DNA of 64,000 bases from Neptuniibacter halophilus (lineage in GTDB: Bacteria; Pseudomonadota; Gammaproteobacteria; Pseudomonadales; Balneatricaceae), in assembly GCF_030295765.1 (NCBI RefSeq), contig NZ_AP027292.1, positions 3,286,001 through 3,350,000 of the forward strand, given 5' to 3'. How positions within the stretch are numbered: the stretch's first letter is position 1; each line of letters opens with the position of its first letter. Both the position numbers and the translations under genes were made by a program. Of this stretch, positions 5,863-35,878 are shown one piece after another. Under the pieces are notes generated by a model. That model saw only the letters and a list, made by a program, of their open reading frames with translations, did not search any database and was not told the origin of the DNA.

Positions 5863-6516
5863 ATGCCAAATTCAGTGGATGAAGCTGTAGTAAAGAAACC
5901 CCGTCGACGCTCCCGTATCCGGGAAGCGCATGAAGAGGGGATTCTCCGTGCCGCAGAGGATCTGTTTTCAGCCAATGGCTATAACGGTACGGCCATCGAA
6001 ACCATCGCCGAAAGGGCGGGGATGTCGAAGCAGAACCTGCTTTACTACTTTCCTTCAAAAGAGGTGCTTTATCAGCGGGTTCTGGAGAATATCCTGAACC
6101 TCTGGGTTGATAAGATGCAGTTACTGGAGCAGCAGGGTAAAGATCCTGCTGAGATGGTGCGCAACTATATCCGCGGAAAAGTGGAGCTCTCGCGCACCAA
6201 CCCGAATGCATCCAAGGTGTTCGCTATCGAAATTATTAATGGCGCACCTTATCTGAAAAATTATCTGAAGAACCATCTGGTTCCGGTTCTGGAAGAGGAT
6301 GTAAAGCTGGTTAAAAGCTGGATCAGCGAGGGGTTAATGGATCCGGTTGATCCTTATCATCTGTTCTTCCTGATCTGGTCCTCCACCCAGACCTATGCAG
6401 ATTTCTCCTCACAGATCAGCCTTTCTCTGGGCAAAAACGGTCTGGAGGATGAAGACTTTGAGAAGGCTACCGAGTTCCTGACCCATATGATCATCAAGGG
6501 GCTTGGTCTGCAATAA
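5863..6516 (+). CDS. rutR: RutR-like TetR-family pyrimidine-responsive regulator
   Basis: 217-residue TetR regulator closely resembling E. coli RutR, which releases DNA on binding uracil or thymine. The DNA-binding helix region reads 'NGYNGTAIETIAERAGMSKQ' followed by 'NLLYYFPSKEVLYQRVL', and the ligand domain keeps RutR-like stretches such as 'YIRGKVELSR' and 'HLFFLIWSSTQTYADF'. A TTG lies in frame at 5848, but the ATG at 5863 is preferred. It is divergent from the cytochrome operon and stands immediately before the F420 operon. Matching palindromes occur at nine or more promoters in the next 27 kb, so it is the likely master regulator of the island. Ligand identity is inferred from family likeness. 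Confidence 0.9.
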   Translation: MPNSVDEAVVKKPRRRSRIREAHEEGILRAAEDLFSANGYNGTAIETIAERAGMSKQNLLYYFPSKEVLYQRVLENILNLWVDKMQLLEQQGKDPAEMVRNYIRGKVELSRTNPNASKVFAIEIINGAPYLKNYLKNHLVPVLEEDVKLVKSWISEGLMDPVDPYHLFFLIWSSTQTYADFSSQISLSLGKNGLEDEDFEKATEFLTHMIIKGLGLQ

Positions 6517-6541
6517 GACCCGATTTTTACCTTTCTCTGAT

Positions 6542-6573
6542 AAAACCGCTGCCATCTGCGCAGCGGTTTTTTT
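6542..6573 (+). terminator. Rho-independent terminator of rutR-like gene
   Basis: 11-base-pair perfect stem (arms 6542-6552 and 6560-6570, 7-base loop) rich in GC at its core, followed by a run of T. It lies 25 bases after the regulator's stop. Confidence 0.9.
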
Positions 6574-6722
6574 ATGCGCTCGCTTAATCTTTTCAGTCAA
6601 TCGCGGCGTTTTTTGCCTCGCTCAATTCATCTCTTTTCTAAATTTAATCTTTTTTAAATCAATGGCTTGCCTTGTTTGGTTCTGGGCCGGTATTAGCCGA
6701 TAAATTCGTTCAGATATTTTTC

Positions 6723-6738
6723 TTGACCATCTGGTAAA
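6723..6738. promoter_or_regulatory. RutR-type operator 1 of the F420 operon, overlapping the -35 box
   Basis: TTGACCATCTGGTAAA differs from the RutR consensus at one base of the right half. The left half, TTGACC, is also a good -35 hexamer with TAGTAT 18 bases downstream (6747-6752) as a -10 candidate, so repressor binding would occlude RNA polymerase. Confidence 0.75.
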
Positions 6739-6754
6739 AGTTGATCTAGTATTA

Positions 6755-6772
6755 TTTTACCGTTTGGTAAAA
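6755..6772. promoter_or_regulatory. RutR-type operator 2 of the F420 operon
   Basis: TTTTACCGTTTGGTAAAA, an 18-base palindrome with 7-base perfect arms, lies just downstream of the putative -10 box at 6747-6752. Its centre is 33 bases (about three helical turns) from the centre of operator 1, which would allow co-operative binding on one face of the DNA. Confidence 0.75.
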
Positions 6773-7063: not shown

Positions 7064-8332
7064 ATGAATGCTCCGAATATTTTGAGTCTGAAGAGTGATG
7101 CAGCGGCCCGCCGGCAGTTGCTGAAAGGGTTTGCTGCGGTCAGCCTGCCGGTGCGGGAGATTCTCAGCGCGGTGGTGGACGGCGAAGAACTGTCAGAAAC
7201 CGATGCGGTCACGCTGTTTTCGGCCGAAGGGCCGGATCTGGATGCATTGATCGCCACCGCAGACTTTATTCGTGAGCGTGCTGTTGGCAATCAGGCCAGC
7301 TTTGTGATTACCCGCAATATCAACTACACCAATGTGTGTTACATGGGCTGTAAGTTCTGCGGTTTTGCTAAACGAAAAGACGATGAAGATGCGGAGTTTC
7401 TGCGTCTGGAAGAGATCGCCAAACGGGCCGAGGAAGCCTGGAACCGTGGAGCGACTGAAGTTTGTATTCAGGGCGGTCTGCACCCGGATATCGATGGCAC
7501 GTTTTACCGTGAAATTCTGAAGGCGATCAAAGCCCGTGTACCGGCGATGCATATCCATGCGTTCTCTCCCTTTGAGATCTGGTTTGGTGCGCTCAAGAGT
7601 AAGGTGTCGGTTGCAGAATTTATTCAGGATCTGATCGATCATGGTCTGGGCTCCATGCCGGGAACCGCAGCGGAAATTCTCGATGTAGAGATCCGTCAGC
7701 AACTGACCCGCGACAAACTCACCACGGAGCAGTGGGTCGAAATTATCACCACGGCGCATCAACTCGGTCTGCCGACCACCGCCACGATTATGTATGGCCA
7801 TATCGACAGCCCGGAACACTGGGCGGCGCATATAGGAAAGATCCGCGACATTCAGAAACAGACCGGCGGTTTTACTGAGTTTGTTCCGCTGGGTTTTGTG
7901 CATTATGAATCTCCGCTCTATGTCGAAAACGGCGATGTACGTCCCGGTCCGACGCCTGAGGAAAATATTCGCATGCATGCGGTCTCCCGCCTGATGCTGA
8001 ACGGCTGGGTCGATAACATTCAGGCGTCATGGGTCAAGATGGGCCCTGAATATGCCCAGCAGATGCTGCGCTCCGGCGCCAACGACCTTGGTGGCACGCT
8101 GATGAACGAGAGTATCTCGCGTGCGGCGGGGGGCAAAAACGGTCAGGAGATCGTACCGGAAGATATGGTGCGGATGATTGCCGAAGCCGGCCGCCAGCCG
8201 GTTCGACGTAACACCCTCTACGATGTGGTGCAGGCCTATGATTATCAGCCAGCCCGGTCAGCACCAAATCTGATTGCCCGCGCTTCAGCCTGTTCGCTGG
8301 AGCTGATCGCGACCACGGGAGGGGCTGCATAA
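7064..8332 (+). CDS. cofH: F420 precursor (Fo) synthase subunit CofH
   Basis: Radical-SAM enzyme that, with CofG, joins tyrosine and 5-amino-6-ribitylaminouracil to make 7,8-didemethyl-8-hydroxy-5-deazariboflavin (Fo). The 422-residue protein carries the [4Fe-4S] motif CX3CX2C at Cys92, Cys96 and Cys99 ('VCYMGCKFCGF') and CofH-type stretches such as 'EVCIQGGLHPDI' and 'GLGSMPGTAAEI'. AAGGAAAG at 7053-7060 supports the ATG. It is the first recognised gene of the F420 operon and its stop overlaps the cofD start (TAATG). Its partner cofG is 22 kb away at 30021, unlike the fused fbiC of actinobacteria. Confidence 0.96.
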   Translation: MNAPNILSLKSDAAARRQLLKGFAAVSLPVREILSAVVDGEELSETDAVTLFSAEGPDLDALIATADFIRERAVGNQASFVITRNINYTNVCYMGCKFCGFAKRKDDEDAEFLRLEEIAKRAEEAWNRGATEVCIQGGLHPDIDGTFYREILKAIKARVPAMHIHAFSPFEIWFGALKSKVSVAEFIQDLIDHGLGSMPGTAAEILDVEIRQQLTRDKLTTEQWVEIITTAHQLGLPTTATIMYGHIDSPEHWAAHIGKIRDIQKQTGGFTEFVPLGFVHYESPLYVENGDVRPGPTPEENIRMHAVSRLMLNGWVDNIQASWVKMGPEYAQQMLRSGANDLGGTLMNESISRAAGGKNGQEIVPEDMVRMIAEAGRQPVRRNTLYDVVQAYDYQPARSAPNLIARASACSLELIATTGGAA

Positions 8333-9381
8333 TGAATGCTCAGACGCCCCTGAAAATCCTGCTCCTCAGCGGTGGAGTAGGTGGCGCCAAAATGGCTGAA
8401 GGGTTCGCCTACAGCCGGTATGCCGCAGCGTTCAGTGTGCTCGGTAATGTGGCCGATGATCAGATGTTTCATGGTCTCTGGGTCTCACCGGATATTGATA
8501 CTCTGACTTACACCCTGTCAGAACAGATCGACCGGGAGAAAGGCTGGGGGCTGAAAGGCGAAACCAATCGTGTGCTGGAGCAGTTAAAGAAACTGGGTTC
8601 TGATACCTGGATGTATCTGGGCGATCAGGATTTTGCCACCCATATCTTCCGCACTGAATTACGTCAGCAGGGGGTGCGAGCCAGCGAGATTGCCCGGAAA
8701 ATCGCGGCTTCGTTCGGTCTTGAACTGCCCATCCTGTTACCCACCGATGACACCATTCAGACCCGTGTGCGCACAACGGATGGTTGGATTCCCTTCCAGG
8801 ACTACTTTGTTAAACAGGGCTGTCAGCCCGAGGTACTCGAGGTGCGGATCGAAGGGATCAATGAGGCCCGGCCTACACCCGAAGCGATCAGCGCGATTGC
8901 CGAAGCCGATCTGATTGTGATTGCGCCGAGTAACCCGATCGTCAGTATCAACCCGATTCTCTCGGTTCCCGGCATCGCCGATGCACTGCTTGATTCGACT
9001 GCGTTTAAAGTGGCGGTATCGCCCATTGTTGCCGGTAAAACCGTTAAAGGGCCCGCAGACCGGATGATGCAGGTGGCCGGTCACAGCGCCGATGTGCTCG
9101 GCGTGGCGGATTATTACCGGGGCCTGATCGATGCGCTGATCATCGATCAGCAGGATCTGGAACATCTGCCCGCTCTGGATGAAAAAATCGCCAACGTGCT
9201 GGCCACCGATACGCTGATGTTCAGCCGGACCAACAAGGTGCGTCTGGCAGAAACCATCGTTCACCTGTATGAGGCGGTGGCGCAGCGTAAAGCGGCTAAG
9301 GCCCGGCAGCGACAGGCTGAAGTCACTCCATCTTTAATTGATGCGGTCGGCAGTCTCAATCCGGCTTTTCGGGAGGCGTGA
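8332..9381 (+). CDS. cofD: Phospho-lactate/phosphoenolpyruvyl transferase CofD
   Basis: Transfers the phospho-lactyl-type group from the activated donor made by CofC onto Fo, giving F420-0 or its dehydro form. The 349-residue protein has the CofD glycine-rich opening 'LLSGGVGGAKMAEGF' (residues 11-25), 'NVADDQMFHGLWVSPDIDT' (about 40-58) and 'APSNPIVSINPIL' (about 203-215). Length fits the family. It overlaps cofH by one base and precedes cofC by two. Which three-carbon donor is used (2-phospholactate, phosphoenolpyruvate or 3-phosphoglycerate) cannot be decided by eye. Confidence 0.95.
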   Translation: MNAQTPLKILLLSGGVGGAKMAEGFAYSRYAAAFSVLGNVADDQMFHGLWVSPDIDTLTYTLSEQIDREKGWGLKGETNRVLEQLKKLGSDTWMYLGDQDFATHIFRTELRQQGVRASEIARKIAASFGLELPILLPTDDTIQTRVRTTDGWIPFQDYFVKQGCQPEVLEVRIEGINEARPTPEAISAIAEADLIVIAPSNPIVSINPILSVPGIADALLDSTAFKVAVSPIVAGKTVKGPADRMMQVAGHSADVLGVADYYRGLIDALIIDQQDLEHLPALDEKIANVLATDTLMFSRTNKVRLAETIVHLYEAVAQRKAAKARQRQAEVTPSLIDAVGSLNPAFREA

Positions 9382-9383
9382 CC

Positions 9384-9995
9384 ATGAAACTGTCTATCGT
9401 GATTCCTATGAAAAGCCCGGAGCGCTCGAAGAAGCGGCTTTCCAAGGTACTGAACCGGCGTGAACGCAAAAAACTGGCAATCTCGCTGTTTGAGAAGAAC
9501 CTGCACTTTTTCCGCGAGCATTACCCCCAGCATAACCTGCTGGTAATCACCGGCTCCACGGTAATCAAAGAGATCTCGGAAGCCGCCGGCGCAGAGGTGC
9601 TGACTGAACATCGTGAGATGGCGGGGCTGAATAACGTCGCGCGAATTGCTGCGGAATATAACGCCGCTCGGGGGTACGACTCTCAGTTAATCGTCCCCGG
9701 CGATATTGAAACCCTGGAAAAGCATGAGGTTGAGCAACTGCTGAACCATCCGCGGGGTGAGCGCTCGGCGATTGTCTGTCCCTCATACGATGGCGGCACC
9801 AACGCTATTCTGACCACGCCGCCGGATGTGATGCCGTTCAGCTATGGCCCGAACTCCTGCCAGATTCATCTACTGACTGCGTTTCAGTTGGGGTTGCAGA
9901 CCAAGCGCCTGTATCTGGAGAAGCTCTCCTTTGATATCGACCGCCCCGGGGATCTGTTCCGGGTCGATTGCGGCTTAGACAAAAAATTTGCATAG
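9384..9995 (+). CDS. cofC: Guanylyltransferase CofC
   Basis: Activates the three-carbon phosphate with GTP to give the substrate of CofD. The 203-residue protein has the nucleotidyltransferase opening 'MKLSIVIPMKSPERSKKRL' and 'IVPGDIETL' in place of the metal-binding segment. A GTG at 9378 is in frame, but the ATG at 9384 with GGGAGG at 9371-9376 is the better start. Proteobacterial CofC enzymes are reported to accept 3-phosphoglycerate; whether that applies here needs comparison of the substrate-specificity residues. It lies between cofD and cofE in the operon. Confidence 0.88.
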   Translation: MKLSIVIPMKSPERSKKRLSKVLNRRERKKLAISLFEKNLHFFREHYPQHNLLVITGSTVIKEISEAAGAEVLTEHREMAGLNNVARIAAEYNAARGYDSQLIVPGDIETLEKHEVEQLLNHPRGERSAIVCPSYDGGTNAILTTPPDVMPFSYGPNSCQIHLLTAFQLGLQTKRLYLEKLSFDIDRPGDLFRVDCGLDKKFA

Positions 9996-10006
9996 GGGAT
10001 ATGAGC

Positions 10007-10783
10007 ATGGCTACGCAGGACGTTGTAATCAAAGTGCTGGAGGGGATTCCCGATATTAAACCGGGCGATCCGCTGGCACAGATCATCCTTCAGTCTCTCG
10101 ATCAGAACCGGGTCTCACTGGATGACGGTGACATTATCGTGATCGCCCACAAAGTGGTCTCCAAAGCGGAAGGCCGGATTGTTGATCTGGCAGACGTAAC
10201 CCCTTCGGCAGAAGCCGGAAAGCTGGCAGCGGAGCTGCATAAAGACCCGCGCAAAGTAGAAGTCGTGTTGTCTGAATCCAACCGTCTGGTGCGTACCTCA
10301 AAGCGTCCTGAGCAGGCCGAAGGCACCATCATTGCTGAGCATCGTCTGGGCTTTATCTGCGCCAATGCGGCGGTGGATGAATCCAATGTCGACGCAGCAG
10401 GCAAAGTGATTCTGCTGCCGGAAGACCCGGATCGCAGTGCCCGGCAGATCTGCGCTGAACTGGAACAGGCCAGCACGAAACGCCTTGGCGTAATTATTAC
10501 CGACACCTTTGGTCGCCCCTGGCGCATGGGGCTGGTCAATGTCGCGGTCGGTCTGGCCCATGTGCCGAGCAAGATCGATCTGGCCGGCGAAACCGATGCT
10601 TATGGCCGTCCGCTGATGGTGACCGTTCCGGCGCTGGCCGATGAGATCGCAGCGGCGTCCGGTCTGCTGATGAGTAAAGAGGGTAAGAAACCCGTACTGA
10701 TTTTTAAAGGCGTTGATTGGCAGAAGAGCGACAGCTCAGCACGCGATCTCGTCCGTCCACAACATGAGGATCTTTTCAGATGA
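10007..10783 (+). CDS. cofE: F420-0:L-glutamate ligase CofE
   Basis: Adds L-glutamate residues to F420-0 using GTP. The 258-residue protein shows CofE stretches '[18 protein letters not shown]' (about residues 42-59), '[13 protein letters not shown]' (116-128) and '[14 protein letters not shown]' (163-176). It corresponds to stand-alone CofE and lacks the C-terminal nitroreductase-like domain of actinobacterial FbiB, so reduction of a dehydro intermediate, if needed, must be done elsewhere. AGGGGA at 9994-9999 favours the ATG at 10007 over the one at 10001. Its stop overlaps the reductase gene start (ATGA). Confidence 0.94.
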
Positions 10784-11448
10784 AAATAGCAATTTTAGGT
10801 GGTACAGGCCCACAGGGTAAGGGGCTGGCTTTACGTTTCGCTGCGGCGGGTGTGGATGTGGTTCTGGGTTCCCGTGACGGTGCCCGTGCAGAGGAGATCG
10901 CTCAGGAACTGAATGGCCTGCAGCCGGATGTGAGCGGTGTGATCAGTGGAACAGATAACTCCGCTGCGACCTCGGCCGCAGATGAGCTGGTGATTCTCGC
11001 GGTACCGTTCTCTGCCCACAACGCCACGCTGGAAGCGATCAAGCCGGATCTGGCCGGCAAAGTGCTGGTGGATATTGTGGTTCCACTGGCAGATGGCGAT
11101 CCGAAAGCGCTGAACATGCCACCTGAAGGCTCTGCCACTGAGGCCGCACAGGCCCTGCTGGGTGAAGAGATTCCGGTGGTGGGCGCACTGCACAACGTAT
11201 CGGCCACCACGCTGAATAATCTGGAGCATTCCATTAACTGCGACATTCTGGTGTGTGGTAACGATCTGGCGGCGAAAGAGAAGGTGATCGACCTGATCAA
11301 TATGCTGGATATCAAAGCCTATAACGCGGGCCCGGCGGTTAATGCCCGCTGTATCGAGGCGATCACCCCGATTCTGATTCGACTGAATATTTCCAAGAAG
11401 GTGCCTTTCTCCCATGCGGGAGTGAAGATCTGGGCACCTGACCACTGA
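10780..11448 (+). CDS. fno: NADPH:F420 oxidoreductase
   Basis: Moves hydride between NADPH and F420. The 222-residue protein has the Rossmann loop 'GGTGPQGKG' at residues 7-15, '[13 protein letters not shown]' (about 27-39) with the Ser-Arg expected to contact the NADP phosphate, and '[11 protein letters not shown]' (about 132-142), all typical of Fno. It overlaps cofE by four bases and precedes the luciferase-fold oxidoreductase by 40 bases, so F420 synthesis, reduction and use are encoded in a row. In this context it should charge F420 with NADPH-derived electrons. Confidence 0.94.
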
Positions 11449-11488: not shown

Positions 11489-12493
11489 ATGGATTTCGGT
11501 ATTACTTTTAAAGGCTTCATCAGCCCTGAGCGTGCGCGTAATCTGGCCAAACAGGCTGAAGAAGCGGGTTTCACCCACTGCTGGTTCTACGACTCCCATG
11601 TACTGTGGCGTGAGTGCTACCCGGCGATCGCTATGTGTATGGAGCACACCTCAAAAATCAGTTTCGGTCCCTGCGTAACGCACCCGAATGCCCGTGACTG
11701 GTCACAGGCGGCGAGCCTGTTTGGTAGCCTGGCGTTGCAGAGTAATGGTCGTTTCCACATCGGTCTGGGACGTGGTGACAGTGGCGTGCGTGTACTGGGT
11801 AAAAAACCGGCCAACCTGGCGCGTGTGGCGGAGTTCACCGAAAAAGTTAAAGCCATGGTTCGCGGTGAAGAAGTGATGTACGGCGATTGCCCGGCTCCGG
11901 TTAAATTCCCATGGGCAGAGGGTTATGACCTGCCGGTTTACATCGGTGCTTATGGCCCGAAAGCACTGCAGACTGCCGGTGAATACGGTGATGGTGTAGT
12001 GCTGCAGATCGCCTCACCATCGCTGGTGAAATGGTTCACCGATCAGGCGCTGGAAGCGGGTAAGGCTGCGGGTCGCGACATGAGTAACTATCAGGTAATC
12101 GCCTCAGCACCGGCTTACTTCGGTACCAAAGAGCGTTGTATCGAAGCCACTCGCTGGTTCCCGGCGATGGTCGGTAACCATGTGGCAGATATCGTTGAAA
12201 AATACGGTGCCCATAGCGGTCTGGTGCCGGAGAGTCTGACCTCTTATATCGAGAACCGTAAAGGCTACGACTACTCCAAACACGGTCAGAGCGATAACCC
12301 GTATTTGGACTTTATCACCGAAGATATTGTGAAAGACTTCTGTGTACTGGGCGGCGTAGATGAGCACATCGCTAAACTGCGTCATCTGGAAGAAGCAGGC
12401 ACAACCCAGTTCAACATCTATCTGGACAGTGGAGATGAAGAGAGCATCGTAGAGAAGTACGGCAAGCACATTATTCCTCACTTCACCAAGTAA
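11489..12493 (+). CDS. F420-type luciferase-fold (LLM) oxidoreductase; candidate pyrimidine reductase
   Basis: 334-residue TIM-barrel protein of the luciferase-like family, in the branch near methylene-tetrahydromethanopterin reductase rather than RutA. It opens 'MDFGITFKGFISPERA' and has 'HCWFYDSHVLWRECYPAIA' (about residues 30-48), 'GPCVTHPNARDW' (60-71), 'HIGLGRGDSGVR' (90-101) and 'PVYIGAYGPKALQTAGEYG' (about 148-166), the last being the typical F420-binding region of this branch. I recall this type as the CPS_4043 (TIGR03842) family. It is the last gene of the F420 operon, before a strong terminator. Because the island lacks dihydropyrimidine dehydrogenase, it is the best candidate for reducing uracil/thymine with F420H2. 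That activity is inferred, not known. Confidence 0.88.
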   Translation: MDFGITFKGFISPERARNLAKQAEEAGFTHCWFYDSHVLWRECYPAIAMCMEHTSKISFGPCVTHPNARDWSQAASLFGSLALQSNGRFHIGLGRGDSGVRVLGKKPANLARVAEFTEKVKAMVRGEEVMYGDCPAPVKFPWAEGYDLPVYIGAYGPKALQTAGEYGDGVVLQIASPSLVKWFTDQALEAGKAAGRDMSNYQVIASAPAYFGTKERCIEATRWFPAMVGNHVADIVEKYGAHSGLVPESLTSYIENRKGYDYSKHGQSDNPYLDFITEDIVKDFCVLGGVDEHIAKLRHLEEAGTTQFNIYLDSGDEESIVEKYGKHIIPHFTK

Positions 12494-12568: not shown

Positions 12569-13186
12569 ATGTCTGATCAAAATCAACAGCAACAACCCGA
12601 ACTGATCCGATCCGTAACCGTCCCTATGCCCACCGATTACGGTGACTTTGCCATGACCGTGTTTACAGAAGCCGAAACCGGTAAAGAGCACATGTTGCTG
12701 GTATTGGGTGATGTGGCCAGTGAAACCGCTCCGATGGTAAGAATCCACTCAGAATGTGCCACCGGCGATCTGTTTGCCTCCGAGCGCTGCGATTGTGGCG
12801 AGCAGTTGCAAGCCTCTTTGCGCATGATGAGCGAGCAGGGAAGCGGCGTGCTGCTCTACCTTCGGCAGGAGGGGCGGGGTATCGGTCTGGCGAATAAACT
12901 CAGGGCCTATCAGTTGCAGGATCAGGGGCTGGATACGGTGGATGCCAATCTGGCGCTGGGATTACCCGCAGACGGCCGGGATTACCGGATAGCAGCGATC
13001 ATGCTGGAAGAGCTCGGGATCAGCGAAATCCGCCTGCTGACCAACAACCCGGCTAAGCTGACCGGATTACAGGCACTGGGTATCAGGGTACGACAACGCC
13101 TGCCATTGCAGGTGCGCTACCGGACAAGAAACCTCGGATATATGAAAACCAAGCAGCAGCGAATGGGGCACCGGGTTCTGCTGTGA
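12569..13186 (+). CDS. ribA: GTP cyclohydrolase II (RibA-type)
   Basis: Opens GTP to 2,5-diamino-6-ribosylamino-pyrimidinone phosphate, the first step towards riboflavin and also towards 5-amino-6-ribitylaminouracil, the substrate of CofG/CofH. The 205-residue protein has the zinc cysteines at 63, 74 and 76 ('SECATGDLFASERCDCGEQL') and the catalytic 'RQEGRGIGLANKLRAYQLQD' (about residues 105-124). AGGGGGA at 12554-12560 supports the start. Placement directly after the F420 operon suggests a dedicated extra copy that raises precursor supply; a housekeeping ribA is expected elsewhere in the genome. Confidence 0.94.
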   Translation: MSDQNQQQQPELIRSVTVPMPTDYGDFAMTVFTEAETGKEHMLLVLGDVASETAPMVRIHSECATGDLFASERCDCGEQLQASLRMMSEQGSGVLLYLRQEGRGIGLANKLRAYQLQDQGLDTVDANLALGLPADGRDYRIAAIMLEELGISEIRLLTNNPAKLTGLQALGIRVRQRLPLQVRYRTRNLGYMKTKQQRMGHRVLL

Positions 13187-13290: not shown

Positions 13291-13306
13291 TTGACCATAT
13301 GGTAAA
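13291..13306. promoter_or_regulatory. RutR-type operator 1 before the carbamoylase gene
   Basis: TTGACCATATGGTAAA; the 14-base core is palindromic apart from the G/A difference in the outer half. TTGACC is also a -35-like hexamer with TAATTT 17 bases downstream (13314-13319). Confidence 0.72.
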
Positions 13307-13318
13307 AATATTCTAATT

Positions 13319-13334
13319 TTTACCATGTGGTTAA
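13319..13334. promoter_or_regulatory. RutR-type operator 2 before the carbamoylase gene
   Basis: TTTACCATGTGGTTAA, a near-palindrome 28 bases (centre to centre) from operator 1 and overlapping or just downstream of the putative -10 region. The paired arrangement repeats that of the F420 promoter. Confidence 0.7.
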
Positions 13335-13391
13335 TTTTTGGTCCTCCTTATTAGGCCATTGCCAAAACAACAAAACAGGAGCTTATCGGCG

Positions 13392-14621
13392 ATGAAAAAT
13401 ATAAAAACGAATCAGCAGAGACTCTGGGACAGCCTGATGCAGATGGGTGAGATCGGTGGCACGGAGAAGGGCGGTTGTTGCCGTCTGGCGCTGACCGACC
13501 TGGATAAGCAAGCCCGTGATCTGTTTATCAAGTGGTGTGAGGATGCCGGTTGCAGCATCCGTATCGATAAAATCGGCAATGTGTTCGCGCGTCGTCCGGG
13601 CAAAAACAATGACCTGCCACCGGTGGTGATGGGCAGCCACATCGACACCCAGCCAACCGGCGGTAAATTTGATGGTGTCTACGGTGTGCTTGCGGGTCTT
13701 GAAGTGATTCGTACCCTGAACGATAACAACATCGAAACCGAGCATCCTGTTGAAGCTTCTATCTGGACTAACGAAGAGGGTTCCCGTTTTGCGCCGGCAA
13801 TGGTGGCTTCGGGTGTGTTTGCCGGGGTGTTCGATCTGGAATATGGCCTCAGCCGTGCCGATCTGGATGGCAAAACCATGGGCGAAGAGCTGGAGCGGAT
13901 CGGTTATGCCGGTGAGCATGAAGTAGGCAGCCCGGTGAAAGCGTTCTTTGAAGCGCACATTGAGCAGGGGCCGATCCTTGAAGAGGAAGAGACCACGATT
14001 GGCGTAGTGACCGATGCTCAGGGCCAGCGCTGGTATGAAGTGACTCTGACCGGTCAGGAAGCACATGCAGGCCCTACGCCAATGCTGCGACGTAAAGATG
14101 CGCTGGTCGGTGCCGCGCAGATTATTGATGAAGTGAATCAGATCGGCCTGACTAACCAGCCAAACGCCTGTGCCACTGTAGGTTTGCTGCAGGTATTCCC
14201 GAACTCCCGTAACGTGATTCCGGGTGAAGTGTTCTTTACCGTTGATTTTCGTCATCCGGATGATGCGGTGCTGTCGAAAATGGATCATCAGCTGCGTGAG
14301 ATCAGCGCCAAGATCGCCGATGAGCTGCAGTTAGAGATGAAATTTGAGCAGATCTGGTACTCGCCACCGGTTCCATTCAATAAAGGCTGCGTGGAGTCAG
14401 TGCGTCAGGCGGCGATCGATGCAGGTTACAGCCATCGCGATATCGTCAGTGGTGCCGGACACGATGCCTGCTACATCTCGCGGGTAGCGCCGACCGGCAT
14501 GGTATTTGTGCCCTGTGAAAACGGCATCAGCCACAATGAAGAGGAAAATGCTAAACCGGAACATCTGCACGCCGGATGTAACGTGCTGCTGCAGGCTGTG
14601 ATCAACCAGGCCTGCAACTGA
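13392..14621 (+). CDS. Zn-dependent N-carbamoyl-beta-amino-acid hydrolase (beta-ureidopropionase-like)
   Basis: Expected to hydrolyse N-carbamoyl-beta-alanine (from uracil) or N-carbamoyl-beta-aminoisobutyrate (from thymine) to the beta-amino acid, CO2 and ammonia. The 409-residue protein is of the M20-like hydantoinase/carbamoylase family: 'GSHIDTQPTGGKFDG' (residues 81-95, metal His83 and Asp94), 'WTNEEGSRFAPA' (125-136, Glu pair), 'EAHIEQGPILEEE' (about 183-195) and 'SGAGHDACY' near the C-terminus. Allantoate amidohydrolases look alike, but the neighbours favour the pyrimidine reaction. A TTG-initiated extension from 13338 is rejected because AGGAG at 13377-13381 precedes the ATG at 13392 and the extension would overlap the operator. 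Confidence 0.9.
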   Translation: MKNIKTNQQRLWDSLMQMGEIGGTEKGGCCRLALTDLDKQARDLFIKWCEDAGCSIRIDKIGNVFARRPGKNNDLPPVVMGSHIDTQPTGGKFDGVYGVLAGLEVIRTLNDNNIETEHPVEASIWTNEEGSRFAPAMVASGVFAGVFDLEYGLSRADLDGKTMGEELERIGYAGEHEVGSPVKAFFEAHIEQGPILEEEETTIGVVTDAQGQRWYEVTLTGQEAHAGPTPMLRRKDALVGAAQIIDEVNQIGLTNQPNACATVGLLQVFPNSRNVIPGEVFFTVDFRHPDDAVLSKMDHQLREISAKIADELQLEMKFEQIWYSPPVPFNKGCVESVRQAAIDAGYSHRDIVSGAGHDACYISRVAPTGMVFVPCENGISHNEEENAKPEHLHAGCNVLLQAVINQACN

Positions 14622-16311: not shown

Positions 16312-16313
16312 AG

Positions 16314-21861: not shown

Positions 21862-23340
<1,479 letters not shown>

Positions 23341-26156: not shown

Positions 26157-26195
26157 TTTACCGTTTGGTAAGTATTTGCTTGACTGAAGGTAAGA
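26157..26195. promoter_or_regulatory. RutR-type operators between LysR and aminotransferase genes
   Basis: TTTACCGTTTGGTAAG (26157-26172) is a near-perfect site. A second, one-mismatch version, TTGACTGAAGGTAA, follows at 26180-26193. Both lie in the divergent promoter region and could affect either gene. Confidence 0.65.
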
Positions 26196-27651: not shown

Positions 27652-27707
27652 TCCGGCTCCACACAGATTAAACATTCCTTTTGAATAAGAATAATGAGAG
27701 GTCACCC

Positions 27708-29198
27708 ATGACAATGATCGGACATCTGATTAATGGCGAGATCCGCACTGATGCGGCGCGCACCCAGGACGTTTTTAACCCATCTACCGGTGCCGCAGAT
27801 AAGCAGGTTGCACTGGCAAGCGTTGCAACCGTAGAAGAGGCGATTGCAGCAGCAGAAGCCGCTTTCCCGGCATGGCGCAACACGCCACCGGCGAAACGTG
27901 CACAGGTGATGTACCGCTTCAAACACCTGCTGGAACAGCATGCAGACAAAATCTGCGAATTGATCGGTGAAGAACACGGTAAGATCCACCACGATGCGAT
28001 GGGCGAACTGCAGCGCGGTATCGAAAACGTTGAGTATGCCTGCGGTGCGCCTGAGCTGCTCAAAGGCGAGCACAGCCGTAACGTCGGTCCGGGTATCGAT
28101 TCCTGGAGTGAGTTCCAGCCACTGGGTGTGGTGGCCGGTATTACGCCGTTCAACTTCCCGGCGATGGTACCGCTGTGGATGTACCCGATGGCGATCGTTT
28201 GCGGTAACACGTTCGTTCTGAAACCATCTGAGCGTGATCCTTCCTCCACTATGTTCATTGCTGAACTGCTGGAAGAAGCGGGTCTGCCAAAAGGCGTGAT
28301 CAACGTCGTTAACGGTGACAAAGAAGCAGTTGATGTACTGCTGACCGACGAGCGTGTTAAAGCGGTCAGCTTTGTTGGTTCTACACCGATTGCTGAGTAC
28401 ATCTACAGCACGGCGAACGCGCACGGTAAGCGTTGTCAGGCACTGGGTGGCGCGAAAAACCACGCCATCGTGATGCCGGATGCGGATATGGATAACGCCG
28501 TAAACCAACTGCTCGGTGCGGCTTTCGGCTCCTCCGGTGAGCGCTGCATGGCCCTGTCTGTTGCCGTTGCCGTGGGTGATGAAGCCGCGGATACGCTGGT
28601 CGCTAAGTTGAAAGAAGCGATGGCACCACTGAAAGTAGGTGCGTTCAGCAACCGCGAAAACGACTTTGGCCCGGTGATCACCCGTGCTCATCAGGAGAAA
28701 GTGAACGGTTATATCAGCAGTGCGGAAGCCGATGGTGCGAGCGTGGTGGTTGATGGCCGTAACCCGCAGGTTGCCGGCTATGAAGAAGGTTTCTATGTGG
28801 GCGCAACGCTGATCGACAACGTCACAGCAGAGATGCAGAGCTATCAGGAAGAGATCTTCGGCCCGGTGCTGCAGGTAGTGCGTGCTGATTCAATGGAGGC
28901 GGCGATGCAACTGATCAACGATCACGAATACGGTAACGGTACCTGTATCTTTACCCGTGACGGCGAAGCGGCGCGTTACTTCTCTGATCACATTCAGGTG
29001 GGCATGGTCGGTATCAACGTACCGCTGCCAGTACCGGTTTCCTACCACAGCTTTGGTGGCTGGAAGCGCTCCCTGTTCGGTGACCTGCATGCGTATGGCC
29101 CTGACTCAGTTCGCTTCTACACCAAGCGCAAGACGATTACCCAGCGCTGGCCATCCAGCGGTGTGCGTGAAGGGGTAAGCTTCTCCTTCCCGAGTTAA
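27708..29198 (+). CDS. mmsA: (Methyl)malonate-semialdehyde dehydrogenase, CoA-acylating
   Basis: Oxidises malonate semialdehyde to acetyl-CoA + CO2, or methylmalonate semialdehyde to propionyl-CoA + CO2, with NAD+ and CoA. The 496-residue aldehyde dehydrogenase has 'QPLGVVAGITPFNFPAMVPL' (137-156), 'VKAVSFVGSTPIAEYIY' (218-234) and the catalytic Cys280 in 'GSSGERCMALS'. The ATG at 27708 follows GAGAGG; an upstream TTG frame from 27681 is rejected. It completes the chain from uracil or thymine to central metabolism and ends at a strong terminator. Confidence 0.95.
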   Translation: MTMIGHLINGEIRTDAARTQDVFNPSTGAADKQVALASVATVEEAIAAAEAAFPAWRNTPPAKRAQVMYRFKHLLEQHADKICELIGEEHGKIHHDAMGELQRGIENVEYACGAPELLKGEHSRNVGPGIDSWSEFQPLGVVAGITPFNFPAMVPLWMYPMAIVCGNTFVLKPSERDPSSTMFIAELLEEAGLPKGVINVVNGDKEAVDVLLTDERVKAVSFVGSTPIAEYIYSTANAHGKRCQALGGAKNHAIVMPDADMDNAVNQLLGAAFGSSGERCMALSVAVAVGDEAADTLVAKLKEAMAPLKVGAFSNRENDFGPVITRAHQEKVNGYISSAEADGASVVVDGRNPQVAGYEEGFYVGATLIDNVTAEMQSYQEEIFGPVLQVVRADSMEAAMQLINDHEYGNGTCIFTRDGEAARYFSDHIQVGMVGINVPLPVPVSYHSFGGWKRSLFGDLHAYGPDSVRFYTKRKTITQRWPSSGVREGVSFSFPS

Positions 29199-29918: not shown

Positions 29919-29934
29919 TTGACCGTTTGGTAAA
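29919..29934. promoter_or_regulatory. RutR-type operator overlapping the cofG promoter
   Basis: TTGACCGTTTGGTAAA. Its left half is a -35 hexamer with TATATT (29942-29947) exactly 17 bases downstream as a -10 box, a well-formed sigma-70 promoter. This ties cofG to the same regulator as the distant F420 operon. Confidence 0.78.
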
Positions 29935-30020: not shown

Positions 30021-31139
30021 ATGTTGTCAGTTGAGCAAGCATACAAACTGGAAAATGCCGACAGTGATCAGATACTGGCGCTGCGCAGACAAGCGTCTGC
30101 ACTGCGCGATATGCACTGGGGCGATGTGGTGACCTATTCACGTAAGGTCTTTGTACCCCTGACCAATATGTGTCGGGATACCTGCGGCTACTGCACCTTT
30201 GTTAAAGCACCGGGTTCGCCTGACGCGCATATCATGAGCCCGGAAGAGGTGATGGATGTGGTGCGTAAGGGGGAGGCGCTGGGCTGCAAAGAGGTGCTGT
30301 TCAGCCTCGGTGAAAAGCCGGAGAAAAAATACCCGGAAGCGCGTCAGCGTCTTGCTGAACTGGGTTACAGCACTATGGTCGATTACCTGCAGGCCATGTG
30401 TCAGATGGTAATTGAACACACCTCCATGCTGCCCCATGTCAATGCCGGGACACTCTCGGAGGAGGACGTCATTAAATTGCGTCCGGTATCTGCCAGCATG
30501 GGGATGATGCTGGAGAACGTCAGCCGGCGTCTGATGGAGAAAGGGCAGGCGCACTATGCCTGTCCGGACAAAGTCCCGGTACAGCGTCTGCGAACGCTGG
30601 AGCTGACCGGCAAACACAATGTGCCTTTTACCACCGGTATCCTGATCGGTATTGGCGAGACCTGGCAGGAGCGTGTCGACAGCCTGCTGGCGATCAACGA
30701 AATCCATCAGCGCTACGGCCATATTCAGGAGGTCATTGTGCAGAACTTCCGCGCCAAACCGGGTACGGCGATGGCAGACTGGCCGGAGCCGGATCAGCAG
30801 GATATGCTGAAGACGCTGGCGGTTGCCCGCCTGATTCTCGACCCTACCATCAGCCTGCAGGCACCGCCGAATCTGCAGGAGCATTATAAGGACTACATCT
30901 TCTCCGGGATCAATGACTGGGGTGGGGTATCGCCACTGACCATCGATCATATTAATCCGGAGCGGGCCTGGCCAAAGATCAAGGCACTGGAGTTTAAAAC
31001 CTCTGAGTCCGGGTATCGCTTGCAGGAGCGGCTGGCGATCTACCCGCAATATAAAAACCTGCCGGAGAAATATCTGGCCCAGCAGATTGCAACCCGGGTG
31101 GATTCTATCGAGTCCCAGCTTTTCTCCAACTTTATATAA
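30021..31139 (+). CDS. cofG: F420 precursor (Fo) synthase subunit CofG
   Basis: Radical-SAM partner of CofH that completes deazaflavin ring formation. The 372-residue protein has CX3CX2C at Cys51, Cys55 and Cys58 ('MCRDTCGYCTF') and CofG stretches 'EVLFSLGEKPEKKYP' (about residues 92-106), 'GMMLENVSRRLMEKG' (about 156-170) and 'NFRAKPGTAMADWPEP' (about 243-258). GGGAGG at 30008-30013 supports the start. It is transcribed alone between two terminators behind its own RutR-type operator, 19 kb from the end of the cofH-cofE operon. Confidence 0.95.
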   Translation: MLSVEQAYKLENADSDQILALRRQASALRDMHWGDVVTYSRKVFVPLTNMCRDTCGYCTFVKAPGSPDAHIMSPEEVMDVVRKGEALGCKEVLFSLGEKPEKKYPEARQRLAELGYSTMVDYLQAMCQMVIEHTSMLPHVNAGTLSEEDVIKLRPVSASMGMMLENVSRRLMEKGQAHYACPDKVPVQRLRTLELTGKHNVPFTTGILIGIGETWQERVDSLLAINEIHQRYGHIQEVIVQNFRAKPGTAMADWPEPDQQDMLKTLAVARLILDPTISLQAPPNLQEHYKDYIFSGINDWGGVSPLTIDHINPERAWPKIKALEFKTSESGYRLQERLAIYPQYKNLPEKYLAQQIATRVDSIESQLFSNFI

Positions 31140-31397: not shown

Positions 31398-31413
31398 TTG
31401 ACCATATGGTAAA
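31398..31413. promoter_or_regulatory. RutR-type operator overlapping the tsx-like promoter
   Basis: TTGACCATATGGTAAA. TTGACC doubles as a -35 box, with TAATAT (31420-31425) 16 bases downstream. Confidence 0.75.
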
Positions 31414-31480
31414 AAAATTTAATATCCTTAGGAGCGGCATTAACGCTAACACTTGTGGGTTATTAAAACAGAGGTCGACA

Positions 31481-32197
31481 ATGAATATAAAAACAAAACA
31501 TATGGTTTGCGCACTCAGTCTTGCTCTTGCCTCTTCTGCTGCCAGTGCAAAGCAGGAGTGGAGTGATTTCAGTATCAGTTATCTTAACGGTACTGACTAC
31601 GAGCTGGGCGACGAAGACCGGCAGTACTTCACCTTTGAACATGCCAGCGGTCATAGCTGGGGCGACACCTTCTTCTTCATCGATCGTGAGATGGGAGAAA
31701 ACGATACCGATTCGCTGTACTTCGAGTTCTCTCCGCGTCTGAGTCTGGGTAAGCTCACCGGCAATGATCTCTCCTTCGGTCCGGTGAAGGATGTCCTGAT
31801 TGCCGGTACCTGGGAGGGTGGAGACGGCTTTGACAACGTCATGGCGGGTATTGGTTTTGCCCTCGATGTACCGGGTTTCCAGTACTTCAATGCTAACCTC
31901 TACCGGGTTAAGAACGAGCTCTGGGATGACGATACCATGGTCACTCTGACCTGGGGTCTGCCATTCAATATCGGCAATGCTGAATTCCTTTACGATGGTT
32001 TTGTTGACTGGTCTACATCCACCTCGACTAACAATGAAGAGGTTAACTTCACTTCGCAGTTGAAGTGGAACGCCGGCAAACTGATGGGTACCTCGTCTCC
32101 GCTGTATGTGGGCATCGAGTATGCGCACTGGACTAACAAGTTTGGTACCGATGTAGATGAGCGCAGCCCGTCACTGCTGGTTAAGTGGCACTTCTGA
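31481..32197 (+). CDS. Tsx-like nucleoside-specific outer-membrane channel
   Basis: 238-residue outer-membrane beta-barrel of the Tsx/OmpK family, expected to let nucleosides or bases through the outer membrane. It has a signal peptide ('MNIKTKHMVCALSLALAS', cleavage after 'ASA' near residue 23), alternating hydrophobic strands such as 'FTFEHASGHSWGDTFFFIDR', and a C-terminal 'LLVKWHF' ending in Phe. The ATG at 31481 follows GAGG; an upstream frame from 31406 would start inside the operator and is rejected. Its RutR-type promoter makes it the outer-membrane entry point of the pyrimidine system. Confidence 0.88.
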   Translation: MNIKTKHMVCALSLALASSAASAKQEWSDFSISYLNGTDYELGDEDRQYFTFEHASGHSWGDTFFFIDREMGENDTDSLYFEFSPRLSLGKLTGNDLSFGPVKDVLIAGTWEGGDGFDNVMAGIGFALDVPGFQYFNANLYRVKNELWDDDTMVTLTWGLPFNIGNAEFLYDGFVDWSTSTSTNNEEVNFTSQLKWNAGKLMGTSSPLYVGIEYAHWTNKFGTDVDERSPSLLVKWHF

Positions 32198-32359: not shown

Positions 32360-32375
32360 TTGACCTGACGGTAAA
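32360..32375. promoter_or_regulatory. RutR-type operator 1 before the 110-residue unknown gene
   Basis: TTGACCTGACGGTAAA. TTGACC is a -35 hexamer with TATATT (32382-32387) 16 bases downstream. Confidence 0.72.
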
Positions 32376-32385
32376 ATGGCCTATA

Positions 32386-32403
32386 TTTTACCTAATGGTA
32401 AAA
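32386..32403. promoter_or_regulatory. RutR-type operator 2 before the 110-residue unknown gene
   Basis: TTTTACCTAATGGTAAAA, with 7-base perfect arms, starts in the -10 box of the promoter. The paired layout (site on -35, site on or after -10) equals that of the F420 operon. Confidence 0.75.
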
Positions 32404-32764: not shown

Positions 32765-33250
32765 ACGGAAAAAAGTGTTGACCTTAAACCCGCCTGAGCG
32801 TAGTTTTTAAACAGGTATTTAACCCTGATAAATGACGAGCAGGGTATTAATAATAATTCCGGTATCCGGCAATGCAGATTAAATTAATCAGACAGCAGGT
32901 TTTATCAGGCTTAACCATGGCGGAGCACATCATTGCTCTGTTCTGGATGAGCTTCCTCTGTTTAATTAAATCAAAACTGCACTCTCTGAAAATGTTTTTT
33001 AATATATCGGCTGTTCGATCCGGATCGTTTAAATACCCTCCCTGTCTGCCTTCTATCTACCTTTATAACCTTAAGCAAACCAAAATCTTTGCGTTTGTGA
33101 TCATCTGATATCTCTTCTGTTTTTCTCAATAACAGGCTGTTCGTCTGTCTGAGAACGCTTATCTGTAACCGACATTAGTGCCTTTAATCAGTGCCGTCAG
33201 GTGTGGGTTATGTCAGCTATTTCATCTTCCAGATAATTCAGGAGCGTAGC
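32765..33250. other. Intergenic region before codA
   Basis: 486 AT-rich bases. A 78-codon open frame at 32872-33108 lacks a ribosome-binding site and protein-like composition and is not called. No full RutR-type palindrome was found, so codA-codB may be controlled differently or by read-through. CAGGAGCG at 33239-33246 is the codA ribosome-binding site. Confidence 0.55.
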
Positions 33251-34531
33251 ATGTTAGATATGCTGGTTCGTAATGCCACTCTGCCCGATGGCCGTAAAGG
33301 GATCGATATTGCGGTAGAGAACGGCAAAATCAGTGCCATTGGTGAGTCGATTCAGACGCCGGCAAAACAACAGATCGACGCGGCGGGCTGTTTGGTCACT
33401 CCGCCTTTTGTCGACAGCCACTTTCATATGGATTCTGCCCTCAGCCTCGGACAACCGAGACTGAACCAGTCCGGCACTTTGCTGGAGGGGATTCAGATCT
33501 GGGGCGAGCTCAAGCCCGATCTGACGGTGGAAGCGATCAAACAGCGGGCATTGCAGATGTGTCGCTGGTCAATTGCCCGCGGCACACTCTGTATCCGCAG
33601 TCACGTGGATATCTGCGATGACCGGTTACTGGCGGTACAGGCATTGCTGGAAGTACGTGAAGAGATGAAGCCCTACCTTGATCTGCAACTGGTGGCCTTC
33701 CCTCAGGATGGTTTCCTGCGTTATGGCCGCTCCCGCGAAAACCTGCTCAGAGCGCTGGATATGGGCGTTGATGTGGTGGGGGGCATCCCGCATTTTGAGC
33801 GCACTATGGACGAGGGTGCCAGTGCTGTACGCCAGTTATGTGAGATCGCCGAACAGCGTGGGTTGCAGGTTGATATGCACTGCGATGAAAGTGATGACCC
33901 GCACTCCCGGCATATCGAAACCCTGGCGTTTGAGACTCAGCGCCTCGGATTACAGGGCCGGGTTACTGGCTCCCACCTGACTTCAATGCACTCCATGGAT
34001 AATTACTATGTCAGTAAGCTGCTGCCGCTGATGCGTGAGGCGGGTCTTCATGTGGTGGCTAATCCACTGATCAATATCACCTTGCAGGGACGGCATGACA
34101 GCTATCCGAAACGCCGCGGTATGACCCGGGTTCCTGAACTGATCCAGGCCGGGATCAATGTAGCCTTTGGCCATGATTGTGTGATGGACCCCTGGTACAG
34201 CCTGGGCAGCCACGACATGCTGGAGGTGGCGAATATGGGGCTGCATGTGGCACAGATGACCGGACTTGAGCAGATGCGACAGGCCTTTGCTGCGGTCACA
34301 GAAAATGGTGCCCGGGTACTGGGGCTGGAAGGCTATGGACTCGACGTTGGCTGCCATGCGGATTTTGTGGTGCTGCAGGCGCAGAGCCCGGTGGAGGCAC
34401 TGCAACTGAAACCAAACCGGCTGTTTGTGGTGCGGCGTGGTCAGGTGATCGCGCGAACCCCGGCTCAGGAAAACTTTGTCTCGCTGGGCGCGGGAGAGGA
34501 ATCACTGAGCTTCTCTACCGGGCGCTTCTGA
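33251..34531 (+). CDS. codA: Cytosine deaminase
   Basis: Converts cytosine to uracil and ammonia, feeding the pyrimidine pathway. The 426-residue amidohydrolase has the metal pair in 'VDSHFHMD' (His57, His59), 'VDMHCDESDD' with catalytic Glu, 'GSHLTSMHSM' and 'AFGHDCVMDPWYSLGS' with the last metal Asp. These match E. coli CodA in order and spacing. The in-frame upstream start at 33191 lacks a ribosome-binding site; the ATG at 33251 is used. It is followed after 48 bases by the permease gene, here in the order codA-codB, the reverse of E. coli. Confidence 0.94.
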   Translation: MLDMLVRNATLPDGRKGIDIAVENGKISAIGESIQTPAKQQIDAAGCLVTPPFVDSHFHMDSALSLGQPRLNQSGTLLEGIQIWGELKPDLTVEAIKQRALQMCRWSIARGTLCIRSHVDICDDRLLAVQALLEVREEMKPYLDLQLVAFPQDGFLRYGRSRENLLRALDMGVDVVGGIPHFERTMDEGASAVRQLCEIAEQRGLQVDMHCDESDDPHSRHIETLAFETQRLGLQGRVTGSHLTSMHSMDNYYVSKLLPLMREAGLHVVANPLINITLQGRHDSYPKRRGMTRVPELIQAGINVAFGHDCVMDPWYSLGSHDMLEVANMGLHVAQMTGLEQMRQAFAAVTENGARVLGLEGYGLDVGCHADFVVLQAQSPVEALQLKPNRLFVVRRGQVIARTPAQENFVSLGAGEESLSFSTGRF

Positions 34532-34579
34532 GCCCGGAAATTTTCTCAATACGAATAAAAACAAGACAGGAGAAATACA

Positions 34580-35878
34580 ATGTCTGACCGGCAAAACTCT
34601 GAGAACTACGCTGCTGTGCACGAGGACTATGCGCTATCCCCGGTCCCCGAAAGCGCACGGCGTGGTCTGCTTTCCATGTCTGCGGTGATGCTTGGCTTTA
34701 CCTTTTTTGCCGCCAGTATGTGGACCGGAGGCACATTGGGTCAGGGCTTCAGGCTGTGGCCGGATCTGTTTATCGTGATCTTTGGTGGTAACCTGATTCT
34801 CGGGCTGTATGGCGCGTTGCTGGGCTACGCCGCAGCCAAAACCAACCTTTCCACGCATATTCTGGCGCGTTACGCCTTTGGTAAAAATGGCTCTAAGTTA
34901 CCCTCGATGATGCTGGCGATTACCCAGATCGGCTGGTTTGGTGTGGGGGTGGCGATGTTTGCCTATCCGATCAACAAGTTTCTCGATATTCCCAATCTGC
35001 CACTGATTATCGGCGGCGGGATTCTGATGACCTACACCGTAGTCATCGGCTTCAAAGCGATCGAATGGCTGAGTACGATTGCAGTGCCGGCCATCCTGAT
35101 ACTGGGGTGTATGTCGGTGTACACCGCAATCTCTGATACTCAGGGGGGGCTGGATGCACTGTTGGCGGTGGCGCCGGCTGAACAGCTCACCTTTGCGGTA
35201 GGGATCTCGCTGGCGGTTGGTTCGTTTATCAGTGGTGCTACATTGACGCCGGATTTCGTTCGCTATGCGAAAAGCCGCAAAGTCGGGGTCTGGGCAACCA
35301 TCATCGGTTTTACTTTTGGTAACAGCCTGATGTTTATCTTCGGTGCATTCGGCGCGGCGTCTACCGGGCTTTCAGATATTGCCGAGGTGTTGGCACAACA
35401 GGGGCTGCTGGGCGCAGGGATCGCACTGCTGGTGCTGAATATCTGGACTACCAATGATAATGCGCTGTATGCCTCGGGTCTGGGGCTGGCAAACATCACC
35501 GGTCTGAAGCGGGTACACTTGGTGATTGTCGCCGGTGCGATCGGGACGATTTTCGCGGAGTTCCTCTACAACAACTTTGTCAGTTGGCTGGTGTTTCTCA
35601 GCGTGTCGCTGCCGCCAATCGGCGGGGTGATCATTGCTGATTTCTATCTGCGCTGTAAAACCTGTTACGCGCAGCCGGATCAGCATCAGTTCAAATCAGT
35701 TAACTGGGCGGCGATTATCGCCTGGGCAATCGCCATCGGTGTTTCGTTTGCATCACCGGAGCGTGGTCTGTTCAGCGTCGCACCCCTGAACGCCATTATC
35801 AGTGCGATGCTGGGTTACTGCCTGCTGTATCGTCTGATCTACGGTGCCAATCAGCAAGAGCAGTCTGCCGTAGCCTGA
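34580..35878 (+). CDS. codB: Cytosine permease
   Basis: 432-residue, 12-helix NCS1 transporter for cytosine. It is clearly different from the two other NCS1 proteins in the window and shows CodB-like stretches: 'FTFFAASMWTGGTLGQGF' (about residues 40-57), 'SGATLTPDFVRYAKS' (about 220-234) and 'NIWTTNDNALYASGLGLAN' (about 285-303). AGGAG lies upstream of the ATG. It is transcribed with codA and ends at a strong terminator. Confidence 0.93.
   Translation: MSDRQNSENYAAVHEDYALSPVPESARRGLLSMSAVMLGFTFFAASMWTGGTLGQGFRLWPDLFIVIFGGNLILGLYGALLGYAAAKTNLSTHILARYAFGKNGSKLPSMMLAITQIGWFGVGVAMFAYPINKFLDIPNLPLIIGGGILMTYTVVIGFKAIEWLSTIAVPAILILGCMSVYTAISDTQGGLDALLAVAPAEQLTFAVGISLAVGSFISGATLTPDFVRYAKSRKVGVWATIIGFTFGNSLMFIFGAFGAASTGLSDIAEVLAQQGLLGAGIALLVLNIWTTNDNALYASGLGLANITGLKRVHLVIVAGAIGTIFAEFLYNNFVSWLVFLSVSLPPIGGVIIADFYLRCKTCYAQPDQHQFKSVNWAAIIAWAIAIGVSFASPERGLFSVAPLNAIISAMLGYCLLYRLIYGANQQEQSAVA

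Follow-up and report, generated by a model that had tools for sequence, protein, structure and literature searches.

A putative F420-dependent first step in the pyrimidine catabolism of Neptuniibacter halophilus

We analysed a 64,000-nucleotide stretch of the Neptuniibacter halophilus genome (contig NZ_AP027292.1, positions 3,286,001 to 3,350,000; hereafter the window), in which genes for coenzyme F420 lie among genes for pyrimidine breakdown. Judged from sequence, the synthesis of F420, an uncommon electron carrier, appears to serve chiefly one luciferase-family (LLM) oxidoreductase here, a proposed uracil/thymine reductase that would replace the usual dehydrogenase at the opening step of pyrimidine breakdown. 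We consider it very probable that the locus encodes a complete reductive pyrimidine (Pyd) pathway with an F420-run first step, a cof-npdG-LLM block replacing preT-preA. A broader claim, which we hold as reasonably probable, is that F420 would be a single-purpose catabolic cofactor, whose synthesis, reductase and pyrimidine reductase form one RutR-controlled cassette, repeatedly exchanged with dihydropyrimidine dehydrogenase and also carried on plasmids.

In the proposed route, nucleobases would enter through a Tsx-like channel and the NCS1 and CodB permeases, and cytosine would, by family assignment of the deaminase, be converted to uracil. NpdG would use NADPH, presumably topped up by the transhydrogenase PntAB, to form F420H2, from which the LLM protein would transfer a hydride to C6 of uracil or thymine. 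The resulting dihydrouracil or dihydrothymine would, again judging by family, be broken down further by a dihydropyrimidinase, a carbamoylase, a transaminase and a semialdehyde dehydrogenase, which complete the route. A RutR-like repressor would bind one type of operator, sites for which were found, at both the pathway genes and F420 synthesis, with repression presumably lifted by uracil.

F420 genes and the search for known first enzymes

Gene identities rest on NCBIfam scores against curated cut-offs, together with Pfam and PDB comparisons (Table 1). The F420 biosynthesis set is complete in the window, with CofG, CofH, CofD, CofC and CofE all over their cut-offs. Apart from a displaced cofG, these genes form a single run, cofH-cofD-cofC-cofE-npdG-LLM-ribA, in which end-to-start overlaps join the first five; the LLM gene follows after 40 bases and then ribA, a copy that likely feeds the deazaflavin precursor. 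CofE consists of just the ligase domain and lacks the C-terminal reductase domain of FbiB. The first-pass annotation had named the F420 and pyrimidine genes from the letters alone, and they are present where it placed them, the RutR-like regulator, both NCS1 permeases and the Tsx-like channel scoring under their NCBIfam cut-offs; to its list we add ribA, PntA/PntB and 13 RutR-type sites.

The LLM gene is the sole TIGR03842 match in the genome (4.11 Mb, 99.73% complete), and the model is of the hypoth_equivalog kind, naming no substrate. Within the 334 residues of the protein, Pfam finds PF00296 alone. Its structure model (pLDDT 89.7) predicts a fold like that of F420-dependent Mer, and every one of the 15 solved entries that match it best is an F420-dependent enzyme.

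No dihydropyrimidine dehydrogenase of known type was met in the genome at the thresholds used. A search with the DHO_dh domain returned one full-length match, the quinone-dependent dihydroorotate dehydrogenase, and weak matches (34.4 and 21.2 bits) to a FabK-like protein and HisF. PreA gave no match at E ≤ 1e-90 among the best 5 of 14 first-look candidates scored, and RutA none genome-wide, with a positive E. coli control; RutB, barbiturase and the URC genes were not part of the genome-wide search. The absence of PreA/PydA and RutA already remarked for the window thus extends to the genome, and this search did not refute the earlier F420 reading.

Exchange with preT-preA across genomes

One set of 293 genomes of the order was searched four times, with the best 5 to 7 first-look candidates per genome scored, for LLM (over cut-off), PreA (NF006183, E ≤ 1e-90), dihydropyrimidinase (E ≤ 1e-110) and CofH (E ≤ 1e-80), which were found in 15, 23, 35 and 77 genomes, respectively. 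PF01180, tried as a PreA marker, was dropped as too broad, with matches in at least 290 of the 293. Dihydropyrimidinase accompanies LLM in 14 of 15 genomes and CofH does so in all 15; PreA genomes carry dihydropyrimidinase in 16 of 23 cases and CofH in none. LLM and PreA never occur together. That overlap of zero is unremarkable alone (about 1 expected); what matters is the split within the 35 dihydropyrimidinase genomes, 14 with LLM, 16 with PreA, none with both and 5 with neither (a non-overlapping split of 14 and 16 gives Fisher p = 6.9e-9, uncorrected for descent). The five with neither hold one hydantoinase each, 36–40% identical to the dihydropyrimidinase of the window, and a copy at 65–83% identity is found in 25 of the 29 other LLM or PreA genomes, these 25 being the ones whose locus was compared (G173, G230, G248 and G089 are in the survey counts and were left out of the locus comparison). 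Among 48 genomes, drawn from 50 of 80 named LLM loci, PreA is over its cut-off in one, Ruegeria atlantica. The actinobacterial pairing mentioned in the first-pass annotation is also seen in the single example looked at, Streptomyces sp. BHT-5-2, where a TIGR02033 dihydropyrimidinase lies directly upstream of TIGR03842.

In a tree of 57 dihydropyrimidinases, LLM-linked and PreA-linked copies interleave, and one LLM genome (G123) is sister to a PreA genome of the same genus (G276) with 100/99 support. On 46 rows, leaving out distant copies and Streptomyces and labelling Ruegeria as LLM, four changes of the LLM/PreA state are needed.

Gene order tells the same story at closer range. A member of the window's family (G139) reads dihydropyrimidinase-carbamoylase-tetR-preT-preA-codB-codA, G065 is the same from dihydropyrimidinase to preA, and G123 reads dihydropyrimidinase-carbamoylase-tetR-cofGHDCE-npdG-LLM, with tetR and carbamoylase oriented oppositely in the two versions (G123 against G139); an NCS1 gene follows dihydropyrimidinase in G086 and G058. 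Ruegeria atlantica carries both versions, cofGHDCE-npdG-LLM and preT-preA, each followed by tetR (−), carbamoylase (+) and dihydropyrimidinase (+), the carbamoylases of the two clusters being 84% identical and the dihydropyrimidinases 62%. The cof-npdG-LLM block, standing in the slot that preT-preA fills in relatives, is best read as an unrelated substitute that can be exchanged with it.

Relatives of the LLM protein were compared as the best 80 of 394. Of these loci, 74 have at least four cof genes, 75 npdG, 69 tetR, 65 carbamoylase, 46 NCS1 and 29 dihydropyrimidinase, and tblastn (E ≤ 1e-10) found neither preA nor preT in L001–L084. Where both flanks are full (56 loci), at least four cof genes occur in 55 and at least one pathway gene in 56; dihydropyrimidinase or carbamoylase is present in 48, and dihydropyrimidinase itself in 23. 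In G086 and G058, some 10 kb separate dihydropyrimidinase from the LLM gene, which is at the limit of what such a flank spans. Three genomes (G253, G118 and G218) keep LLM among pathway genes with CofH elsewhere, in a frame of 836–841 residues consistent with an FbiC-like fusion. On a plasmid of Leisingera aquaemixtae, NCS1-hydA-carbamoylase-aminotransferase-pntB-pntA lies back to back with cofGHDCE-npdG-LLM-tetR.

Among named relatives, the closest one found is the gammaproteobacterium Marinobacterium stanieri (Oceanospirillaceae), with an LLM protein 95% identical to that of the window. The LLM of Vibrio sp. S9_S30 is 84% identical and those of four other Vibrio loci 74–75%; the S9_S30 locus, in which cofG is displaced as in the window, may by this comparison have been acquired by transfer. 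The F420 and pyrimidine genes of the Leisingera plasmid occupy about 16 kb of 176 kb, and the block is possibly a mobile cassette. Across the survey, the CofH frame has at least 700 residues in 64 of the 77 CofH genomes, consistent with a CofG-CofH fusion, and TIGR03842 is not over its cut-off in 62 of the 77; F420 is common in the order and must have other uses there. Seven genomes (G006, G075, G136, G146, G166, G186 and G242) have PreA and no dihydropyrimidinase at threshold, and PMC7332683 likewise describes PreAT of E. coli without a dihydropyrimidinase.

RutR-type operators at F420 synthesis and pathway genes

The TetR protein of the window is RutR-like by sequence and not RutR proper: it falls under the cut-offs of two models (the second at 190 against 230 bits), and its nearest solved structures are those of E. 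coli RutR (169.6 bits, against 50.1 for the next family). RutR is a sensor of uracil and thymine according to a title cited in PMC10891134.

Thirteen matches with at most three mismatches were found in the window against 2.49 expected, a count reached by none of 100 shuffles, when it was scanned with the RutR consensus. Two of them, at 9730 (inside cofC) and 49713, look like chance. A pattern derived from the sites occurs exactly at seven places genome-wide, all inside 6723–32402 of the window, a test that is partly circular. With one mismatch allowed, a reversed-pattern control gave 40 and 33 matches genome-wide against 19 and 17 for the pattern, and it is therefore the clustering of sites that counts and not their totals. 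Within the window, one mismatch gives 13 sites, not quite the same set as the 13 consensus matches, and all are intergenic, although 83% of 5848–35878 is coding. They precede nine genes or units: tetR, cofH, carbamoylase, both NCS1 genes, aptA/lysR, cofG, Tsx and codA.

In relatives (counts at no more than one mismatch), 69 of 73 loci have a site ahead of their first cof gene, 46 of them an exact one, where single-base shuffling predicts 0.25; these 73 promoters are related by descent, and twin sites recur in many of them. Positions inside the operon are nearly empty (cofD 0/74, cofE 1/75, npdG 0/75, LLM 0/77); before tetR and pntA the counts are 29/69 and 3/17. Common operators, together with the exclusion of PreA and the exchange of the preTA slot, support the earlier suggestion that the LLM protein may be an F420H2-dependent pyrimidine reductase.

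Alternative readings, precedents and neighbouring genes

Several observations weigh against our main reading. Sites are rare before the later pathway genes of relatives at the same stringency (dihydropyrimidinase 1/24, aptA 0/17, semialdehyde dehydrogenase 1/20, NCS1 3/42, carbamoylase 18/65); several of these genes probably stand behind another gene of the same operon, and the counts make the operator more regular at F420 synthesis than at later genes. It is weak in PreA loci (preT 1/15 at one mismatch, 5/15 at two), the test before cofG missed in 2 of 3 alphaproteobacteria-titled loci (L081 and L082), and the Leisingera and Paracoccus plasmids carry two-mismatch sites. Seven of the 14 LLM genomes belong to one genus and the 80 LLM loci are close relatives, so the counts are not independent. 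Ruegeria has PreA as well, and Motiliproteus a sub-threshold PreA-like protein (219 against 335 bits). Finally, a plasmid of Paracoccus alcaliphilus (L132) has cofGHDCE-npdG-LLM, and no pathway gene was detected up to 14 kb from it, and G094 (L124) has a TIGR03842 protein 43% identical to that of the window and no dihydropyrimidinase at threshold. After the LLM gene of L132 come ABC transporter and formate dehydrogenase genes; the divergent G094 gene adjoins one resembling methylmalonate-semialdehyde dehydrogenase, and its product perhaps acts on another substrate.

The last two loci, with TIGR03842 outside a pathway cluster, give some room to the idea that the LLM enzyme reduces a different ring (for instance a modified pyrimidine, a hydantoin or a product of purine degradation) while ordinary uracil is reduced by an unrecognized enzyme. 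A parallel exists in uric acid clusters of Chloroflexota, for which PMC12507026 proposes an F420-dependent LLM protein as putative yanthine reductase; it too is a luciferase-family, presumably F420-dependent reductase of a nucleobase-derived ring assigned from gene context, but in a purine pathway, and the comparison made here is by description. We regard this alternative as improbable: the RutR-type operators, the cytosine deaminase and permease, and a dihydropyrimidinase matching 5e5c at 812.6 bits indicate uracil and thymine, and the LLM gene takes the slot of preTA.

That the F420 and pyrimidine genes are chance neighbours or parts of a general nitrogen-scavenging island, with F420 serving another enzyme, seems to us very unlikely. 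Other F420 users are conceivable, as a search for FDOR-type enzymes (PF04075) found no match in the genome and was silent in control genomes too, so that it carries little weight; yet the arrangement repeats in 55 of the 56 full-flank loci, RutR-type operators link both gene sets, and the only other LLM-family protein found in the genome is of the MsnO8 family and not TIGR03842, for which reason F420 is probably dedicated to pyrimidine reduction here. Equally unlikely is the idea that the LLM protein is Mer-like, reducing methylene-tetrahydrofolate or a pterin and accompanying the F420 genes as a mere passenger, since it scores far under the Mer cut-offs (TIGR03555, 109.8 against 348.7 bits; NF002619, 120.2 against 276), stands in a pyrimidine and not a C1 context, has no counterpart of the catalytic Glu6 of Mer (T in 66, C in 27, V in 2 and Glu in none of 95 family sequences, 91 distinct), a residue whose change to Gln retains 0.4% of kcat according to PMC11094777, and would leave the exclusion with PreA unexplained.

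We favour uracil/thymine reduction by the LLM enzyme, an assignment that draws on the genes around it, on its mutual exclusion with PreA and on its fold. The locus would then be another version of the known reductive pathway, one whose first enzyme is unrelated to the usual one. RutA, which oxidizes the pyrimidine ring with flavin and oxygen, is not in the genome, and the downstream enzymes of the window require a reduced ring. With PydA and PreT-PreA the LLM protein would share the reaction, pathway position, downstream genes and cluster slot, but it is a short luciferase-fold protein with F420 as expected cofactor and without the FMN-binding, PyrD-type DHO_dh domain; it is not a member of their family and may work alike. 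PydA uses NADPH, PreAT NADH and PydAc ferredoxin, all being PyrD-family FMN/Fe-S proteins, according to PMC7332683. We found no report of F420-dependent pyrimidine reduction in the literature searched, which spans few subscription papers or preprints and is not proof of absence.

A review (PMC8498797) counts among the unanswered questions what Proteobacteria and other newly identified producers need F420 for; the locus likely offers a concrete answer for one set of lineages. TIGR03842 gains a substrate hypothesis, and, if the reading is true, an unrelated enzyme class joins uracil/thymine reduction and a whole cofactor pathway would be governed by one catabolic regulator.

Table 1. Genes and putative operators of the locus (window positions; scores in bits, cut-off in brackets)
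Feature	Position	Strand	Support
Operator before tetR	5805..5820		1 mismatch to TTKACCNNNTGGTMAA
RutR-like TetR regulator (PydR/RutR type)	5848..6516	+	TIGR03613 196.2 (under 368)
Two operators, 33 bp apart, before cofH-D-C-E-npdG-LLM-ribA	6723..6771		exact at 6723, 6756
cofH	7064..8332	+	TIGR03551 520.6 (374.1)
cofD	8332..9381	+	TIGR01819 287.3 (257.45)
cofC	9378..9995	+	TIGR03552 127.1 (105)
cofE	9968..10783	+	TIGR01916 260.3 (180.65); Pfam PF01996 only
npdG, NADPH:F420 oxidoreductase	10780..11448	+	TIGR01915 198.5 (149.8)
LLM oxidoreductase, proposed F420H2-dependent uracil/thymine reductase	11489..12493	+	TIGR03842 483.6 (295.45)
ribA, GTP cyclohydrolase II	12569..13186	+	NF001591 264.9 (148)
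Two operators before carbamoylase	13291..13334		13291 exact, 13319 one mismatch
Carbamoylase	13338..14621	+	TIGR01879 438.7 (204)
pntA/pntB transhydrogenase	14840..17720	+	PntA NF006942 386.6 (383)
NCS1 nucleobase permease	18861..20369	-	TIGR00800 322.6 (under 353.1)
Operator of NCS1 permease 18861..20369	20433		one mismatch
Dihydropyrimidinase (PydB)	21862..23325	-	TIGR02033 621.2 (393.25)
NCS1 nucleobase permease, strand as dihydropyrimidinase	23409..24911	-	TIGR00800 323 (under 353.1)
Two operators before NCS1-dihydropyrimidinase unit	24996..25060		24996 exact, 25045 one mismatch
Operator between lysR and aptA	26157..26172		one mismatch
Beta-alanine transaminase (PydD-like)	26308..27651	+	omega-aminotransferase AptA 717.8 (500)
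CoA-acylating (methyl)malonate-semialdehyde dehydrogenase	27681..29198	+	TIGR01722 676.8 (448.5)
Operator before displaced cofG	29919..29934		exact, 86 bp ahead of start codon
cofG	30021..31139	+	TIGR03550 480.4 (213.35)
Operator at Tsx-like gene start	31398..31413		exact, overlaps listed start codon
Tsx-like nucleoside channel	31406..32197	+	PF03502 57.4 (27.2)
Two operators about 0.8 kb before codA	32360..32402		32360 one mismatch, 32387 exact
Cytosine deaminase and cytosine permease	33191..35878	+	NF005748 775.4 (438); NF008241 515.4 (326)

Among the pathway genes, the carbamoylase is probably an N-carbamoyl-beta-alanine amidohydrolase (PydC-like), a substrate inferred because entries named deacylase or amidase outscore that enzyme: its best NCBIfam name is 'allantoate amidohydrolase' (NF006769, 684.1 bits), and in the PDB the 'Deacylase' 5thw (642.2 bits) stands ahead of N-carbamoyl-beta-alanine amidohydrolase 8c46 (476.7 bits). 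The dihydropyrimidinase match, 5e5c, is a solved D-hydantoinase/dihydropyrimidinase from P. aeruginosa, and the transaminase matches beta-alanine-pyruvate transaminase 4b98 at 642.7 bits. PntB is under its NF006974 cut-off (431.1 against 689 bits), with 583.5 bits to PF02233. The Tsx-like protein reaches 27.9 bits against an NCBIfam cut-off of 311, and its listed start is probably too early.

A small gene before cofH (6821–7048), considered as a conserved element, was set aside: the loci searched held no counterpart at E ≤ 1e-3, and it showed no meaningful similarity to CofG. Further along, a Marine-subtype ammonium transporter, a type III glutamine synthetase, a glutamine amidotransferase-like protein, an FwdC-like protein and a glutamate-synthase-like domain protein stand in a row at 40460–46983, which looks like a nitrogen-assimilation cluster adjoining the pyrimidine locus.

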